DNA from: Rhodobacter sp. CZR27
GTDB taxonomy: Bacteria; Pseudomonadota; Alphaproteobacteria; Rhodobacterales; Rhodobacteraceae
Assembly (NCBI RefSeq): GCF_002407205.1
Contig: NZ_CP023548.1
Location: 2,876,501 to 2,940,500 of the forward strand
Reading direction: 5' to 3'
Length of the DNA stretch: 64,000 nt
The notes under the pieces were generated by a model. It had not been told where the DNA came from and made no database searches. It saw nothing but the letters and a program-made list of their open reading frames with translations. Every line of letters starts with the position of its first letter. The stretch's first letter is position 1. The position numbers were made by a program, and so were the translations under genes. Below are positions 28,417-35,668 of this stretch, piece by piece.

Positions 28417-28830
28417 ATGATGCCGCCGGAGGCCGGAGGGACAGGCAGCGATGCCGCATCCGCCGGTTCCCCGGCGGTTTCGTCGCTTCCGACGCTGGAG
28501 ATCCTCAGGAAACGCGCCGACTTCCTGCGCGCCGCGCAGGCGCGGCGCCAGGGCACGCCCGGCTTCCTGCTGCAGGCCCGCCGCCGCGGCGACGAGGGCG
28601 GCATCCGCGTGGGCTTCACCTGCTCGAAAAAGGTCGGCAACGCCGTGACGCGCAACCGCGCGAAGCGGCGCCTTCGGTCGCTGGCGCGCGAGGTTCTCGC
28701 GGGCAAGGGTCATCCGGGCTGGGATTACGTCCTTGTCGGCCGCCCCGGCGCGACGATCGAGCGTCCCTATGCCGCCCTCCTGTCCGACCTCGACCGGGCG
28801 CTCGGCCAGATCCACGGCTCGGGGCGATGA
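28417..28830 (+). CDS. rnpA: ribonuclease P protein component
   Basis: A 137-aa basic protein carrying the RnpA signature [14 protein letters not shown] and [16 protein letters not shown]. It assists the RNase P RNA in tRNA 5' processing. The first 25 residues are a nonconserved extension, so the start could be ATG 28417, ATG 28420 or a later codon. Its stop overlaps the yidD start (ATGA). Confidence 0.95.
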
Positions 28831-29078
28831 GCCCCCTGGCGCATCTGCTGGCGCTGCCGGTGCGGGCCTACCGGCTGGTCCTCAGCCCCTGGGTCGGTCA
28901 TGGCTGCCGCTATCAGCCGACCTGTTCCGTCTATGCGCTCGAGGCTCTGGAACGGCATGGTGCGCTGAAGGGCGGCTGGCTCGCGGCGCGCCGGCTGCTC
29001 AGCTGCCATCCCTGGGGCGGTTCGGGCTACGATCCCGTGCCGGGCAGCGATCCCGGGCATGACCACCGCGCCCCCTGA
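28827..29078 (+). CDS. yidD: membrane protein insertion efficiency factor YidD
   Basis: An 83-aa protein with the family pattern [19 protein letters not shown] then [16 protein letters not shown]. It supports YidC-mediated membrane insertion, and yidC itself lies 7 kb downstream, separated in this genome by the ttcA insertion. It starts within the rnpA stop. Confidence 0.95.
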
Positions 29079-29099
29079 CGATCTGACCGGAGGTCTCCG

Positions 29100-29274
29100 A
29101 TGTTCGACGACGAGGACGAGATCCACCCGCTGCTTGCTGGCGCGCCCCGAACGACCGAGTTCCGCAAGCTGAGGAAGCGAATCGTCCGCGAGGTGCGCGA
29201 GGCGATCGAGACCTGTGGCATGGCCGAGCACGGCGCGCGCTGGCTGGTCTGCGTGTCGGGCGGCAAGGACAGTT
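29100..29274 (+). pseudogene. ttcA: 5' fragment of the native ttcA gene, cut at the PP-loop codons
   Basis: Fifty-eight native codons with a GGAGG Shine-Dalgarno encode a protein beginning [20 protein letters not shown] and ending [13 protein letters not shown], the N-terminus of the tRNA 2-thiocytidine synthetase TtcA. The frame runs straight into an insertion sequence after the AGT of SGGKDS and stops two codons later. Codon use matches the host (about 6 of 58 codons end in A or T). A complete ttcA lies 4 kb downstream, so this is the severed original 5' end. Confidence 0.9.
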
Positions 29275-29279
29275 GTAGT

Positions 29280-30259
29280 TAGTCCAAGTGTTCAGTCCCG
29301 GCATCTGGTGGATCGGGTCAAGGATGAATCGATCCGGCTCCGAGGTCCAGACCTTGCAGATATATCCGTAGGGAGTGAGGCCGTTCAGCGTCTTGAGCCT
29401 GCGAGCGACGTTTTAGGCTGCCAGGAAGTCGCCGAGGTGCGCCCGCCGCTGATCGTGGCTATCGTATTGGAAGCGCTTGACGGTCGCGTCCTTAATCGTG
29501 CGGTTGGGCTTGGTCAGGCGGTGCTCGATCACGTTGGCTTCGCAGATCATGCCGAAGCGCATCGGCCGGGAGTAGATGGTGTTCCGGTTCCGGGGCTGCT
29601 CGGCGAACTGGATGCCGGTGTCGGTGAGAACGGTGTGGACCTGATAGGGCACGGCCTCGAGCATGTGCTGCAGGAACTCCCAGGCGGTCCTTCTATCAGC
29701 CGTTGCAACGAGTTGAGCGATAGCGAACTTGGAGGTCCGGTCGATTCCGACGAACAAGTAGAGCTTCCCTTCGCCGGTCTGAACCTCGGCAATGTCGATG
29801 TGAAAGAACCCGATGGGGTAGCGCTTGAACTTCTGGCGCTTTGATGTGTCGCCTTCGACATCCGGCAGGCGCGAGATGCCATGACGCTGCAGGCCCCGAT
29901 GCAACGCCGACCGTGTCAGGTGCGGGATGGAGGGCTGCAGGGCATAGAGGCGTTCCTCGCTTCAGACGATCCCCCGGATCGTCTGGTTGACGCTCGAACT
30001 CCAGCGGGCGAAGCGTGTGGCGCCGGATCGCCACGACCGCCGCTTCCTCGGGCTCGGTCAAGACCGTCGAGCGCGGTTCCTTCGGCCCGGTCTTCAAATC
30101 CTCGACCGTCGCGCGCTTGCGCCACTTCGCCACCGTCTTCGGATTGACGCCCAGTTCCCGGCTCGGCTGCGCGAGCGAAGCTTGCGACCGCTGTATTGCT
30201 GCTCTGACAGCGTGCGTGGTCGTGGCGCTCCCGTGATGTAGGGCTTCCTTCCATTCCAT
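29280..30259 (-). pseudogene. IS481-type transposase, frameshifted and lacking its catalytic Glu segment
   Basis: The N-terminal part (MEWKEALHHGSATTTHAVR, HTH text ELGVNPKTVAKWRKRA) and a DDE core (RYPIGFFHIDIAEVQT, GKLYLFVGIDRTSKF, VLTDTGIQFAEQPRN) lie in different frames. An extra stretch of some 40 bases with a palindrome interrupts the frame near 29960-30000. Between EHRLTKPN and RTIKDATVKRF the usual segment holding the third catalytic residue is missing. The C-terminal tail (SEPDRFILDP, HQMPGLNT) is again out of frame. Several lesions make it inactive. Confidence 0.85.
29964..29984. repeat. 9-bp perfect palindrome inside the dead transposase
   Basis: AGACGATCC and GGATCGTCT flank a CCC centre. 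It sits in the extra segment that breaks the transposase frame, so it may mark a small secondary insertion. Confidence 0.5.
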
Positions 30260-30296
30260 CGAATGGATCGCACCATCAAACCGTTGGAGCAAACAC

Positions 30297-30471
30297 CTCG
30301 GAAAGCGATCTCGCGGCGATGATCGCGAAATACCGGAAGCGCATCGCGGATCTTGAAGCGGAGGTCGAGCAGAGGAACGTGGAACTCGCGTTCTTGACCC
30401 AGCGGTGTCGGCGCGCGAACGTCGAGCTGTCCGACATCAACCGGCCCCTCAAGCTCGCTGCGAAGGACTGA
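30297..30471 (+). pseudogene. 3' fragment of an unidentified coiled-coil protein
   Basis: A frame opens right at the IS border and runs to TGA at 30469-30471. It encodes a heptad-like, highly charged sequence: MIAKYRKRIADLEAEVEQRN and onward to VELSDINRPLKLAAKD. An internal ATG at 30319 would give 50 aa. Because the reading begins at the IS end with no start or Shine-Dalgarno, I read it as the tail of a gene whose front was lost. I cannot name the family. Confidence 0.5.
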
Positions 30472-30476
30472 CATGG

Positions 30477-30866
30477 ATGTCGAACATCGAAAAGGATCGC
30501 GAGATTGCACGCCTGGCGGAGACCTGGGCCGCCGAGATCGAGGCATCGAGTCGCGCGGATGCATTCATCCGGTCGGGCGCGCTGAACAGGAGCCTTGTGG
30601 CGGTGCGTCTCGGCTTCTCGCGATCCGCCTGGCAGACGAACCCGGGCCTGAAAGCTCTGGCCGGGCGCCTCGATACGACATGGAGTGACGGCAAGACCCC
30701 ACCGGCTGCGCGCGTTTCCGCGCCGATCACTGAGCGTCGTTCTTCCGGAGAGCCTCTCCCCGTGACCGACGGTGCGCTGGTGCATCGCGAGATCGCGGAC
30801 CTTGCGGGCGTTTCCTACGCAGACATGGATCGGAAGGATGTGCGTTCCCTCCTGGCCGCCCGATGA
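30477..30866 (+). CDS. small helix-turn-helix-like accessory protein of the element
   Basis: The intact frame of 129 aa begins 5 bases after the previous stop. The core, SRADAFIRSGALNRSLVAVR then LGFSRSAWQTNPGLKALAGRL, has a helix-turn-helix look and resembles small partner proteins next to tandem tyrosine recombinases in genomic islands (such as VPA1267-type proteins); this link is from memory and weak. A coiled-coil segment follows in another frame, so this may be the front half of a frameshifted longer protein. No recombinase remains nearby. Confidence 0.5.
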   Translation: MSNIEKDREIARLAETWAAEIEASSRADAFIRSGALNRSLVAVRLGFSRSAWQTNPGLKALAGRLDTTWSDGKTPPAARVSAPITERRSSGEPLPVTDGALVHREIADLAGVSYADMDRKDVRSLLAAR

Positions 30867-30915
30867 GCATAGGGTGGCCTTGGGACGTCCTTGTCGCGTG
30901 GCACCTGAGGAGAGC

Positions 30916-31117
30916 ATGCCGCCACCACCTCTCGACCCTGCGGAAATGGTCCCCGCTTCGCGACTGCGGGACGCGCAGCGCCAGCTGTCGCAAGCCGAGA
31001 CACGGTTGGCGGAACTTCGCGCCGAGAACGCGAGGCTGAGGGCGCAGATCATGCGCGGCGATGAGGTCACTGAGCTTATCGCTTCGGGCGGTCGGATCGC
31101 GCCGACGGGGTGCCGTG
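30916..31117 (+). pseudogene. coiled-coil segment, probably the out-of-frame C-terminus of the preceding gene
   Basis: An ATG with GAGGAGAG just upstream opens a segment reading ASRLRDAQRQLSQAETRLAE, then LRAENARLRAQIMRGDEV, a clear leucine-heptad coiled coil. No stop occurs before the helicase remnant, and the frame then runs into nonsense. Either it is the frameshifted tail of the 129-aa protein or a separate small gene that lost its stop. Confidence 0.4.
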
Positions 31118-33059
31118 ATGAGCTTCGGTTCGGAGCCGTCCGGTATTCCTCGCGTGACTGGCCTGCTCGCCACCTACATGGCGCGCGAGAAGGCTTTCCG
31201 GGGCATCGGGCCACGCCGTGCCGCCGCCCTCGCCGACGCCCTCCGGACGACCTTGAAGCGTTGATCCTCGCGCTGGACGAACGCGTCATCGAAACGTCGG
31301 CGACGAGGCCTCCATCGCGGCCGCGGCCGCGATGGAGGCAAGACGGCGTTCCTTGGCTGGCTCAACGAGATCAGGGCCGAAATCCTCGTTGCCAAGGCGA
31401 TCCGGCTTGCGCGGGCCTGGGGGCCGAAGGGGGTCGAGGCCGTACGTGGGAACCCCTACCTGCTGCTGGCGATTGCGGACTGGAAGGCCGTCGACGCCAT
31501 CGCCCTTGCAACCCGGGTAGATGCCAACGATCCGCGCCGCGATGTGGCAGCCGTGGAGGCCGTCCTTCTGGGGGAGGCATGCCTGGGGAGTGGATCGACC
31601 CGCCTACCCGCCAGCGAAGCTCTCCGCTCTGCGCAGAGCCTCCTTGCGCGCCCTGTGGCGTCGGGAGTGGAAGAAGCTGCAGTTGCCTCGGGCGGCGCGG
31701 TGCGGCTCGCTGATGCGCTCCATCCGCCCGGGACGGCCCATATGGAGGGCGAGTGCGCCCTCAGGCTGGCGCGTCTGGCGAATGCCTCGCCGGTCATGAG
31801 GGTCACGCCCCCGGCCCAGTTGGATGCGCTGCTCGAGGCTAATGGGGACGACCAGCCGTTCCCGCTGACGGAAATGCAGCGCGAAGCAGTGCGGATGGCC
31901 CACCGGCACCGGTTGATGGTGCTGGCAGGCTATGCCGAGTCGGGCAAGACGACCGTCCTGCGGGGCGTCTGCGACACGCTGGAGGCAGTGGGGCGTGCGC
32001 CCCTCATCGTGACGCTGTCCGGCTGTGCCGCGTAGCGCGCTGCGGAGACGACGGGCAGGCGGGCGATCACGGTTGCCAGGTTCCTGATCGAGCAGGAGAA
32101 GGCCGACGGCCCGCTCGAGGTGACCACGGCGCTTATCGCGGACGAGGCATCAATGCCGGGTCTCGTGGAATTCTGGCGGATCCTGCGGCGTCTCGGGGAC
32201 GCCTCGCTCCTCCTGTGCGGCGACCCGGGGCAGCTGCCGCCTGTAAGTCCGGGTGTTGTGTTTCATGAGCGCGTGGACGACGGGGATATCGCGCGCGTGA
32301 TCCTCGATCGCGTCCATCGCCAGGACGAGGGCACCGGCATCCCTGCGGTTGCCGAGGCCGTTCGTCACGGAAGGATCGCGAGTCTGCCCGTCTTCGCCGG
32401 GGCTGGGGCCGGAGTGAGCTTCACCCGCTGCAGCTCGGAAAGGCTTCCCGCAGAGGTCCACGCGATGGGGCGCGCCCTGGCTCCGGCCAGGGCAGACCGC
32501 GACGGCATCCAGATCATTGCGCCGACGAGCCGCGAGATCGAGGCGCTCAACGGTTATTTCCACAGCATCGCCATGCGGCGTGGCCCGGCATGGCCCATGT
32601 GGCCGAGGGCGACCGGTGATCTGGACAAGGAATGATGCCGAGCGAGGGTTGACAAACGGCTCGATGGGCCGCGTCCTGCATATCGGACCCGACAGCATCA
32701 CGGCCGTACTCGACGGGGACACTCACGAGCTCGCGCCGTCAGATGGCGCATTCCTGCAGCTCGCCTACGCGGATCCGTCCACAAGGCGCAAGGCTCGCAA
32801 TGGCAAAGGGTGATCGTTCCGGATTTCCAGAGCCGGATCCTCGACCGCTCCTTAGATCCATACTGCGCTCAAGCGCGCGCAGGAGCAGTTGATCTTTCTT
32901 GGGGATCAGAAGGCCCTCGAGGTCGCCGGCCGCCCGCCGCCGACCGGCGCGACGTGGGCTTCGGCGACTGGCTGCTGCTCGCCCGCGCCCGGTTGGGCAC
33001 GGGCCAGAGAGACGGCTCGGTCCGTCCTGAACCTGTCGCATCCGGTTCCGTGGCGGTAA
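31118..33059 (+). pseudogene. RecD-like SF1 DNA helicase, multiply inactivated
   Basis: Joined across frames, the segments give a RecD2-type helicase: an HhH-like N-terminus (FRGIGPRRAAALADAL), NEIRAEILVAKAIRLARAWG, Walker A (AGYAESGKTT), Walker B (LIADEASM), motif III (LLLCGDPGQLPPV), UvrD_C_2-type domain (TVHKAQGSQWQRVIVP) and a tail TRAQEQLIFLGDQ. Lesions include frameshifts near 31240, 31340 and 32600, a TAG at 32033-32035 where related proteins have Lys, and further shifts near 32770 and 32860. It is cargo of the element and now dead. Confidence 0.8.
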
Positions 33060-33197
33060 GACGTTAAAATCCCGCCGAGCTTCTCTCACATCAGATGGAC
33101 AGCAGACCAAGGCAGTCCACGCGACCACTGTCAGTTCGGTGGCAGCTATGGCAAATGTCCCTTTCCAGAACCCGTGCTTTCCCATGAGGCGCCGCTT
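33060..33197 (+). promoter_or_regulatory. 138-base imported leader upstream of the chimeric ttcA
   Basis: This stretch between the helicase remnant and the second ttcA has no reading frame of note and must hold the promoter for the replacement ttcA, since the native promoter now leads only to the cut fragment. GAGG sits 8 bases before the ATG. I see no clear -35/-10 pair. Confidence 0.35.
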
Positions 33198-34064
33198 ATG
33201 ATCGATGAGCTTGATGACATCCATCCCATTCTCCAAGGCGCTCCACAGACCACGGAATTCCGTAAGCTGCGCAAGCGGATCGTACGGCACGTTCGCGAAG
33301 CCCTTGACCACTACGGCATGGTGGATGGGCGGGATGCACGCTGGCTCGTTTGCTTGTCCGGCGGGAAAGACAGTTTCACTCTCCTGGCCGCCCTCATCGA
33401 GCTGAAGTGGCGCGGCCTGTTGCCGGTGGACCTGCTGGCATGCAACCTCGACCAGGGCCAGCCTGGCTTTCCGGCCACGGTCCTGCCGGAGTTTCTCGCC
33501 CGGATGGGAATCCCCCACCGCATCGAGTACCAGGACACCTACTCGATCGTTGTCGACAAGATCCCGCAGGGGCGCACCTATTGCTCGCTCTGCTCGCGGC
33601 TCCGTCGTGGCAACCTCTACCGGATTGCGCGCGAGGAAGGCTGTTCGGCCATCGTGCTCGGCCACCATCGCGACGACATCCTCGAGACCTTCTTCATGAA
33701 CCTCTTCCACGGCGGGCGACTTGCGACCATGCCGCCGAAGCTCGTGAACGAGGACGGCGACCTCTACGTCTACCGGCCCCTGGCCTTCGTGGCCGAGGCC
33801 GATTGCGAGAAGTTCGCCCAAGGGATGAATTATCCGATCATTCCTTGCGATCTCTGCGGCTCGCAGGAAGGGCTGCAGCGCCAGCAGGTGAAGCAGATCC
33901 TTGACGGATGGGAGGCGCGCAGCCCCGGGCGGCGCCAGGTGATGTTCCGCGCGCTGATGAACACGCGGCCCTCGCATCTGCTCGACCCGCAGCTTTTCGA
34001 CTTTGCCGGCCTGCAGACCGGACAAATCCGGGAAAATCCGCCGCAACTTCGCGTCGACGATTAA
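33198..34064 (+). CDS. ttcA: tRNA 2-thiocytidine(32) synthetase TtcA, chimeric gene with imported 5' end
   Basis: A complete 288-aa TtcA with PP-loop SGGKDS at residues 54-59 and Cys129, Cys132 and Cys217/220 ([17 protein letters not shown]) for the Fe-S cluster. It thiolates C32 of several tRNAs. The first 59 codons differ from the host fragment at 29100 in protein and codon use: about 20 of 59 end in A or T, against 6 of 58 in the fragment and about 7 of the next 57 here. So the gene is probably a fusion of a foreign 5' end with the native 3' part at the shared GACAGTT. ATG 33198 aligns with the start of the fragment. Confidence 0.93.
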
Positions 34065-34135: not shown

Positions 34136-35668
34136 ATGCAGGACCGGAGTGCATCTTGGACGGGGATCGCCCGTGTCGGCAGGCGGCTGCGCCGGCCGGA
34201 GGCGCTCGCCTTCCTGCCTGCCATCAGCCTCCTGGCCTACTGGCTCGGCGGCGAGATGCATCTTGTCCTGGTCGCGCTCGGCCTGCCCCTGATCTATGCC
34301 GTTGCCGGCACCTTCGAGGAGGGCGAGACCGCCGGGCTGCGCGACAGGCTCGACGAACTGGCGCTGCGGCCGCAGGTGATTGCCGCCCTAGATGCCGTCC
34401 TTGCCGACGGGGGCGCGGGCCGGACGACCGGCTGCCTCGTGCTGCAGTTCGACGAGATGGAAAAGCTGCTCGACCGGCATGGCCGCGCGGCGCAGACCGA
34501 GGTGCTGGCCCGGAGCGGCGAACGACTCTGTGCGGCGCTGCGCGAGGGCGATGTCGTGGCGCGTCTGGAAGGCGGCGGCTTCGCGGTGGCCCTGCATCCG
34601 GTGCGCCGGCTCGATCTCGAATCGATGATCCAGCTGGCCGCGCGCCTGCAGGCCGCGGCGGCGGCCCCGATCAGCCTCGACGGGGTCCGGCTCTATGTCA
34701 CCTGCTCGATCGGCTTCTGTCTCGCGGCCCGCTCGCCCGCGCCACGGGGGCGCGCCATGCTCGATGCGGCGCAGGTGGCGGCCGACGAGGCGCAGCGGAA
34801 CGGTCCCGGCGCCGTCCGGGCCTATGCACCCGAAATGGCGCGCAAGCGTGCCGACCGGGATGCCCTGCGCGAATTGCTGGAGGTTGCGCTGGACGGCGGC
34901 CAGATCGTGCCCTGGTTCCAGCCGCAGATCTGCAGCCGGACCGGCAGCGTCAGCGGATTCGAGGCCTTGGCGCGCTGGCAGCATCCCGATCGCGGGCTGA
35001 TCCCGCCGTCCGAGTTCCTTTCGGCCATCGAGGAAGCCGGCCTGTCCGAACGGCTGGGAGAGGTCATGCTCTACCAGGCCCTGACGGCCCTCCGGCAATG
35101 GGATCGCGAGGGATTCTCCGTGCCGAGCGTGGGGGTGAACTTCTCCGTGGCCGAATTGCGCAATCCGCGCCTCGTCGAACGCCTGAAGTGGGAGCTCGAC
35201 CGATTCGAACTGGCGCCGTCACGGCTCTCGATCGAGATCCTCGAGACCGTCGTGGCGGAAGGGGCAAGCGACGTGGTCGTTCACAACATCGCGGGGCTTG
35301 GGGCGCTCGGCTGCGGCATCGACCTTGACGATTTCGGCACCGGCCACGCATCGATCACCACGATCCGCCGCTTCGCGCTGCGCCGGCTGAAGATCGACCG
35401 CAGCTTCGTGACGCGCGCGGACGAGGACAGGGACCAGCAGACCATGCTGGCGGCGATCATCTCCATGGCAGAGCGGCTGGGCCTCGAGACGCTGGCCGAA
35501 GGCGTGGAAACGCCGGGAGAACGGGTCATGCTGGCGCAACTCGGCTGCGGCCACCTGCAGGGCTTCGGCATCGCGCGGCCGATGCCCTTCGCCGAGGCGG
35601 TCACATGGCTCCAGTCGCAGGGCACCCGCCGCGTCAGCGCCGCCCGGCGCGGATCGCGCGGGATCTGA
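34136..35668 (+). CDS. GGDEF-EAL protein, likely c-di-GMP phosphodiesterase with degenerate GGDEF
   Basis: A 510-aa protein. Two short N-terminal hydrophobic stretches (about 22-52) suggest a membrane anchor. The GGDEF domain (about 85-235) is degenerate: the signature site reads EGGGF. The EAL domain (about 250-495) keeps the key motifs: FEALARW, NFS, SIEILET, DLDDFGTGHAS, KIDRSFV and EGVET. It should therefore hydrolyse c-di-GMP. ATG 34136 has GGAAGGGA upstream. It follows ttcA after 71 bases. Confidence 0.88.
   Translation: MQDRSASWTGIARVGRRLRRPEALAFLPAISLLAYWLGGEMHLVLVALGLPLIYAVAGTFEEGETAGLRDRLDELALRPQVIAALDAVLADGGAGRTTGCLVLQFDEMEKLLDRHGRAAQTEVLARSGERLCAALREGDVVARLEGGGFAVALHPVRRLDLESMIQLAARLQAAAAAPISLDGVRLYVTCSIGFCLAARSPAPRGRAMLDAAQVAADEAQRNGPGAVRAYAPEMARKRADRDALRELLEVALDGGQIVPWFQPQICSRTGSVSGFEALARWQHPDRGLIPPSEFLSAIEEAGLSERLGEVMLYQALTALRQWDREGFSVPSVGVNFSVAELRNPRLVERLKWELDRFELAPSRLSIEILETVVAEGASDVVVHNIAGLGALGCGIDLDDFGTGHASITTIRRFALRRLKIDRSFVTRADEDRDQQTMLAAIISMAERLGLETLAEGVETPGERVMLAQLGCGHLQGFGIARPMPFAEAVTWLQSQGTRRVSAARRGSRGI

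Follow-up and report, generated by a model that had tools for sequence, protein, structure and literature searches.

How can a conserved, working gene come to possess two beginnings? The question is raised by a stretch of 64,000 nucleotides from Rhodobacter sp. CZR27 (contig NZ_CP023548.1, positions 2,876,501 to 2,940,500), referred to below as the window, in which the gene order is rpmH (recognised by eye), rnpA, yidD, a partial ttcA, an insert of about 3.9 kb, a complete ttcA and a gene for a GGDEF-EAL protein. The genome contains one complete copy of ttcA (33198-34064, copy 2), one 5' piece and one distant paralogue (36% identity). Four other genomes of the same genus (G001 to G004; the window genome is G000) were compared with it, and the genus is called Cereibacter here after the names of the closest TtcA proteins. 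Codon numbers follow copy 2; the native form of ttcA is one codon shorter. The explanation favoured below, with modest confidence, is that an island of a multi-recombinase type integrated into ttcA of a Cereibacter ancestor, re-supplied the 5' end of the gene and stranded the native one. All features lie on the forward strand unless stated otherwise.

Two beginnings of one gene

The first beginning of ttcA is a stranded piece of 58 codons and one base (29100-29274), which reaches codon 59, ends in ...GGCAAGGACAGTT and belongs to an open reading frame (ORF) that closes at 29282. The initial annotation had read this piece as the native 5' end of a gene split by a mobile element, an assignment that is upheld by comparison with same-genus genomes. 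Twenty diagnostic sites were defined within bp 1-176, at which copy 2 and G003 have one base and three native genes, without exception, another; at 19 of the 20 the stranded piece carries the native base, and at none the copy-2 base. It is 84-88% identical to the ttcA 5' ends of G001, G002 and G004, forms a clade with them in the tree of the 5' segment (support 98/89), and has a GC content at third codon positions (GC3) of 0.88. Its identity to the complete ttcA is 68% over residues 1-61, with 119 of 174 bases in common. In G001, G002 and G004, which are three of the four same-genus genomes, the order rnpA-yidD-ttcA-EAL is uninterrupted, the insert is absent and ttcA has the native 5' end, as the annotation had expected of relatives lacking the element.

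The second beginning belongs to the complete ttcA, whose product of 288 residues has the SGGKDS motif at codons 54-59, CSLC at 129 and CDLC at 217. The first 67-78 codons of this gene are foreign in type, resembling Roseobacter, and the rest is of native Cereibacter type. The 5' end of copy 2 is 70-75% identical to those of G001, G002 and G004, and past bp 177 the identity is 80-90%; GC3 is 0.66 for codons 1-59 and 0.84 for the remainder. At sites where the native genes are unanimous, the foreign-type share is 20/146 in bp 1-177, 7/20 in bp 178-201 and 12/500 in bp 202-780. The likelihood is highest for a change point at bp 202, positions within 2 log-likelihood units (lnL) of it span bp 200-234, and the gain in likelihood was reached in none of 2000 permutations. 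Copy 2 can accordingly be divided into a foreign 5' part (33198-33396), a transition zone covering bp 200-234 or codons 67-78 (33397-33431), and a native 3' part (33432-34064). The switch falls in a strongly conserved stretch of the gene. SYTLLAVLHEL, found in the three natives, is replaced by a different 11-residue stretch common to copy 2 and G003.

A foreign front and a native remainder had been predicted for copy 2, with the switch placed at codon 59; the foreign front is confirmed, but the tract is longer than proposed. The heptamer GACAGTT, which occurs at 29268-29274 and 33369-33375 and had been thought to mark the join, does not do so for copy 2. It is bp 172-178 of ttcA and is present at both ends of the insert, yet inside homologous ttcA codons, and the foreign tract continues 22-56 bp past it, copy 2 being foreign-type to at least bp 200, or 22 bp further. 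A change point at bp 178 has an lnL of -151.2 versus -142.3 at bp 202, which rules out the heptamer as a recombination core for this copy. GACAGTT occurs four times in the window versus 2.6 times expected, and at least four occurrences were obtained in 24 of 100 shuffles. Identity between copy 2 and G003 at 33318-33422 (bp 121-225) is 0.96-0.98 per 45-bp window, with 0.89 and 0.91 just outside; it is equally high at bp 361-405 and 451-525, so the peak at 33318-33422 may be due to chance.

The two segments of copy 2 also give conflicting trees, which were built from 73 rows for bp 1-201 and 72 rows for bp 235-779 (loci L094-L128, duplicate and partial loci excluded). In the 5'-segment tree, copy 2 and G003 belong to a set of seven with Epibacterium, Ruegeria, Allosediminivita, an uncultured Roseobacter and G090 (support 100/92), whereas the rows nearest to copy 2 in the 3'-segment tree are G003, G004, G001 and G002. 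Topology tests were framed after quick trees had been seen. Constraining the six Cereibacter rows to one group cost 62 lnL in the 5' segment and was rejected by the approximately unbiased (AU) test (p-AU 0.021); the same constraint on the five Cereibacter rows of the 3' segment cost 15 lnL (p-AU 0.33). A grouping of three Roseobacter-clade rows with copy 2 and G003 was not rejected in the 5' segment (p-AU 0.37). The relatives that lack the element have the native 5' end rather than that of copy 2, and the 3' part of copy 2 is native.

The insert and its relatives

Remnants of island genes lie between the native 5' piece and the hybrid ttcA, in line with the mobile element that the annotation had placed there. 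Judged by its gene content, the insert is a decayed island in which VPA1267-like and RecD2-like pseudogenes persist, the presumed recombinase genes are gone and an IS481-family element stands in their place. The VPA1267-like pseudogene (30477-31113) is frameshifted near 30861, with the homologue P0123 aligning at 30480-30860 (81%) and 30862-31113 (92%); the protein is 216 residues long in relatives, and the match to NF040697 (E 2.5e-5) is far under the cut-off. The RecD2-like helicase pseudogene (31115-33052) is matched by residues 1-657 of P0131 at 67% identity and by AAA_30, and has one internal TGA, one internal TAG and frameshifts. It also contains a perfect 32-bp palindrome (31308-31339). 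Upstream of the VPA1267-like gene is a coding remnant (30304-30471), recognised from its translation and without shown homology, which may represent the terminal part of a recombinase-type gene that has been lost. The hybrid ttcA is preceded by a leader of 145 bp (33053-33197) that is shared with G003 and could be either the 3' end of the island or DNA from upstream of the donor gene; the stretch 32990-33197 has no match at any fetched locus except that of G003.

At the left end of the insert, 14 nt that match neither ttcA nor the insertion sequence (IS) may be a remnant of the left end of the island (29275-29288). They are followed by the decayed IS481-family element (29289-30295, reverse strand), whose ends, TGTTCAG...CAAACA, were read from the sequence and whose fragmented transposase has an rve domain; NF033577 (transpos_IS481) matches a 163-residue fragment with an E value of 3.6e-35, which is under the full-length cut-off. 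As a rule, members of the IS481 family use a CTAG-type target and duplicate it. Copies in L075 and G255 abut CTAG, but the element in the window has no visible target duplication and its flanks, TCCAAG and CCTCGG, are not of the CTAG type. Another IS481-family end (L075 1-56) lies beside ACTAGG shortly upstream of rpmH-rnpA-yidD-ttcA. Without the IS, the insert measures about 3 kb. The insert yielded no integrase or recombinase gene, and the scanned ORFs no phage-integrase domain; a Pfam Nnf1 match among the window ORFs was taken as a coiled-coil artefact. An attachment (att) pair is not distinguishable from ttcA's own homology at the insert ends. The native flanks are rnpA (28417-28830) and yidD (28827-29078), which adjoin each other and ttcA in G001, G002 and G004 with yidD 20-39 bp ahead of ttcA, and the GGDEF-EAL gene (34136-35668, assigned by Pfam), which is 3' of ttcA in G001 to G004.

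Intact relatives of the island were found in other members of the family. The VPA1267-like gene had no match among 394 family genomes other than the window genome, and a search with residues 1-129 of its product listed 10 proteins, the window's own included. A helicase profile search of 337 family genomes (E up to 1e-90) recovered the window genome, G150, G255 and G094, and in the last three, recombinase-type genes precede both a small gene and the helicase gene. The G150 versions match the window best (E 8.9e-20 for the VPA1267-like protein, 50% identity for the helicase). Its island spans 8284 bp between imperfect repeats (L142 7349-15633), lies inside a gene resembling that of an MBL-fold hydrolase (by motif only), and has recombinase-type genes for a Phage_integrase protein of 447 residues, a protein of 498 residues with a sub-cut-off match to NF041502 and a protein of 766 residues without a match. 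Directly after ssb, the G094 island (L144 1447-9997) has three recombinase-type genes, of which the second exceeds the NF041502 cut-off, together with an additional small gene. The helicases of G255 and G094 are about 36% identical to that of the window, and the small protein of G094 has no match. In the G255 island GmtY scores 305 bits (cut-off 340), GmtZ 413 (cut-off 600) and VPA1267 94.3 (cut-off 90), making it the only one of the three whose small gene reaches the VPA1267 cut-off.

A possible link between such islands and ttcA comes from Aquicoccus sp. SU-CL01552. The TtcA N-terminus of this strain is the best named match outside Cereibacter (87%; P0004, a protein without a name, matches at 95%). 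VPA1267-like and helicase homologues had longest contigs of equal size in five cases (6534, 51685, 8538, 253185 and 164751 bp), and both island genes and ttcA of the Aquicoccus strain appear, from equal size and name, to share one contig of 164751 bp. G285, the single genome examined of its genus, does not have the island gene looked for.

Age and proposed course of the insertion

The ttcA of G003 is the same hybrid, 90% identical to copy 2 over bp 1-177, and the 208 bp upstream of it are 90% identical to the window (32990-33197), including the last 20 or so helicase codons. Since G003 shares both the hybrid ttcA and the 3' tail of the insert, the insertion predates the split between G003 and the window genome. 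The same hybrid N-terminus occurs in proteins named C. sphaeroides (P0002) and C. azotoformans (P0003). An assembly artefact or contamination has next to no probability as an explanation: the source genome (4.4 Mb, 4 contigs) is 100% complete with 0.16% contamination, the two named proteins share the hybrid N-terminus, and the idea is refuted by the independent presence of the same hybrid and leader in G003.

The G003 assembly is 83% complete, and its rnpA-yidD with a frameshifted native ttcA 5' piece is 380 kb from its hybrid ttcA. The alignment of this piece breaks off at window position 29268, a short way ahead of rnhB (a name given from its reading). G003 has been rearranged here, because the sequence on the other side of its hybrid ttcA matches distant sites of the window genome, at about 77 kb and 575 kb on the contig. 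In G003 the two sides of the insertion (L033 and L037) are rearrangement breakpoints separated by about 380 kb. The nearly equal left end in the two genomes, together with the 14 nt that precede the IS in the window, suggests that codon 59 is an old boundary rather than the edge of a deletion made by the IS.

Under the favoured explanation, a multi-recombinase island consisting of two or three recombinase-type genes, a VPA1267-like gene and a RecD2-like helicase gene would have entered ttcA in the common ancestor of the window genome and G003. The distal end of the island would have brought the leader and a Roseobacter-clade ttcA 5' end, fused in frame to the host 3' part so that TtcA stayed intact, and the host's own 5' end would have been left on the opposite side. 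Later the recombinase genes would have been lost, an IS481-family element would have settled near the left junction, and the other island genes would have decayed. The hybrid gene, the stranded native piece, the remains of island genes, the sharing of the event with G003 and the recombinases of intact relatives are observed; that such recombinases acted in the integration and that the 5' end travelled inside the island are the inferred parts of this sequence.

Several observations weigh against island integration. The boundaries are unequal, since the native piece ends at codon 59 and copy 2 is foreign up to codon 67-78. Simple tyrosine recombination predicts one shared core, so that at least eight codons would have had to be lost at the left; that G000 and G003 share this left end almost to the base argues against recent trimming. 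Recombinases of the relatives, compared with 29001-33400, gave no match better than E 0.24. The island genes of G150 are 54 kb away from its ttcA, and the linkage in Aquicoccus is a shared contig by inference, adjacency not having been observed. The Aquicoccus helicase is 62% identical, versus 83% for the metagenomic P0131, and the Aquicoccus island is not the closest. The AU rejection in the 5' segment (0.021) is moderate, and the contrast with the 3' segment is weaker because forcing copy 2 and G003 with the three Roseobacter-clade rows is not significantly rejected there (p-AU 0.135). Finally, no second genome with a partial 5' piece and a complete ttcA was found among the 394 family genomes, about one per genus.

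The unequal breaks imply either later loss of host codons or homology on one side with illegitimate joining on the other. The second option is the principal rival, homology-facilitated illegitimate recombination, in which a linear fragment from a Roseobacter-clade donor, bearing an incomplete island together with the donor's ttcA 5' end, would have reached the cell through conjugation, transformation or a gene transfer agent and recombined without an island recombinase, by homology at codons 67-78 and an illegitimate join at codon 59. It accounts directly for the difference between left break and right switch and for the roughly eight missing host codons, and the conserved stretch at the right switch and the small size of the insert fit it as well. 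Such recombination has been reported in E. coli conjugation, at low efficiency, and in three naturally competent species (PMC3240628). It demands, on the other hand, a donor in which an island fragment sits right upstream of ttcA, and it does not by itself predict linkage of island genes and ttcA in another genus. This course is considered possible, though on the unlikely side.

A plasmid or conjugative element bearing a Roseobacter-type ttcA could also have recombined with the host gene by one homologous crossover, with subsequent deletion of the 3' part of the first copy and of the backbone, partly by the IS481-family element. One crossover yields a native-5' copy and a copy with foreign 5' and native 3' parts, and an IS is situated near the deletion edge. 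The deletion would, however, have to end at most a few tens of bp away from the crossover, and G000 and G003 would have to agree in its end point almost to the base. Among the scanned ORFs, none was recognised as a gene for plasmid replication or transfer, and the 53 plasmid-collection records with a ttcA match comprise 5 at 60-80% identity and 48 below 60%. Plasmids had no match to the VPA1267-like protein and only more distant helicases, the best on a Thioclava plasmid. A crossover of this kind is judged improbable.

The searches for a second split ttcA and for a carrier covered chromosomes, phages, plasmids and viral contigs. At E values up to 1e-9, a threshold that a decayed 5' piece could escape, ttcA was found in 360 of the 394 family genomes (393 genera), and nine genomes, the window genome included, had two matches. 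Among the other eight, the second match is a distant paralogue in G084, G338 and G344; G013 and G026 have adjacent pieces of one gene, in G169 a complete ttcA is accompanied by a 3' piece on a different contig, and G187 has two pieces on two contigs. Other elements bounded by a partial and a complete ttcA, which the annotation had suggested looking for, were thus not encountered in this set. G255 was considered and rejected, as its ttcA is divided between two contigs, with the interruption between codons 57 and 68 and transposon-like sequence at either broken end, its island is on a third contig, and no complete ttcA was found in the genome. Beside the two pieces (L047 6737-6916; L048 5411-6028), an IS200/IS605-like stretch, identified by eye, follows codon 57, and codon 68 is preceded by 25 bp from the end of an IS481-family element. 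Of the 124 fetched rows of loci with a ttcA N-terminus (some overlapping, the window genome left out), one has a second, decayed 5' copy. This is Labrenzia sp. DG1229 (L108 6687-8231), in which a decayed partial ttcA is followed by 1.1 kb with a 252-residue open stretch and a complete ttcA; it was rejected as a case since the complete gene is genus-like throughout, with no hybrid signal, and the island recombinases have no match at the locus. Five phage records contain ttcA; of the four inspected, two are Rac-like, one is an Acinetobacter record with chromosomal-looking genes around ttcA and one is unannotated. Alignment of the VPA1267-like protein gave no match in viral contigs, where four remote helicases (25-29%) and one TtcA relative (48%) were seen.

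Related systems and consequences for TtcA

The initial annotation likened the locus to tRNA-integrating elements, which restore their target. The layout fits this comparison, and the most probable reading is that a site-specific island gave its target a new 5' end. The logic is not new for protein genes, being already described for dusA islands (PMC4482086) and the Rac prophage (PMC4632033). The dusA islands characteristically replace the 5' end of the gene with new island sequence (PMC4482086). They resemble the present case in targeting the 5' region of a conserved tRNA-modification gene, whose 5' end is swapped for that of the island and kept on the far side; ttcA in the window likewise has a foreign 5' end, with the native one beyond the insert. 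They differ in that they have one dusA-associated integrase and an att pair roughly 21-28 bp long, whereas here the gene is ttcA, the kin are multi-recombinase islands, and neither such an integrase nor such a pair was found. The Rac prophage is inserted into ttcA itself, at the 5' end, and its integration changes four TtcA residues (PMC4632033); in the Rac-like KU052037 (Rac-SA53), attP corresponds to nt 25-50 of ttcA. Target gene, an attachment site in the 5' coding part and an altered N-terminus are points in common. Rac is, however, an enterobacterial prophage that alters four residues, while the change considered here is in Alphaproteobacteria and covers some 67-78 codons including the PP-loop, and no intR or phage genes as in Rac-like prophages are among the ORFs of the insert.

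With respect to gene content, the closest parallels are GInts, which have three integrases and GinD, imperfect end repeats of 10-11 nt and ssb as a frequent site (PMC5385486), and which are compared with related elements elsewhere (PMC10214605). The islands of G150 and G094 are similar in their three recombinase-type genes, small gene and further genes, in the location of G094 at ssb and in the imperfect direct repeats of G150. The window differs, since ginABC are missing and it retains the last two genes alone; the VPA1267-like pseudogene occupies the place expected of the small GinD protein, which in GInts comes immediately behind ginC. For GInts that hit gene starts, the available part of the report describes an outward promoter and not a coding 5' end (PMC5385486). 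Gamma-mobile-trio (GMT) islands, compared by NCBIfam names, are represented by the GmtY, GmtZ and VPA1267 matches of G255, but the VPA1267-like ORF of the window reaches only 24 bits (cut-off 90) and its best kin, of the G150 type, carry other recombinases. Neither a multi-recombinase island in ttcA nor a Rhodobacterales TtcA hybrid was reported in the titles and abstract beginnings covered, most subscription papers lying outside that coverage.

It is possible, as a tentative generalisation, that a Rhodobacterales clade of GInt- or GMT-like islands uses ttcA as a home site and carries a coding 5' end that extends past the PP-loop, swapping the N-terminal quarter of the enzyme between genera and leaving a chimeric TtcA after decay. 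If so, re-supply of the target gene would extend from single-integrase islands and prophages to a multi-recombinase class of islands, and the swapped part would grow from a handful of N-terminal residues to some 70 codons that run through an active-site motif. The lasting outcome would be a chimeric housekeeping enzyme that has outlived the decayed element in two genomes of Cereibacter and is present in two more proteins named after the genus. Hybrid conserved genes of this sort can mislead gene trees, and they can also flag old insertion sites.

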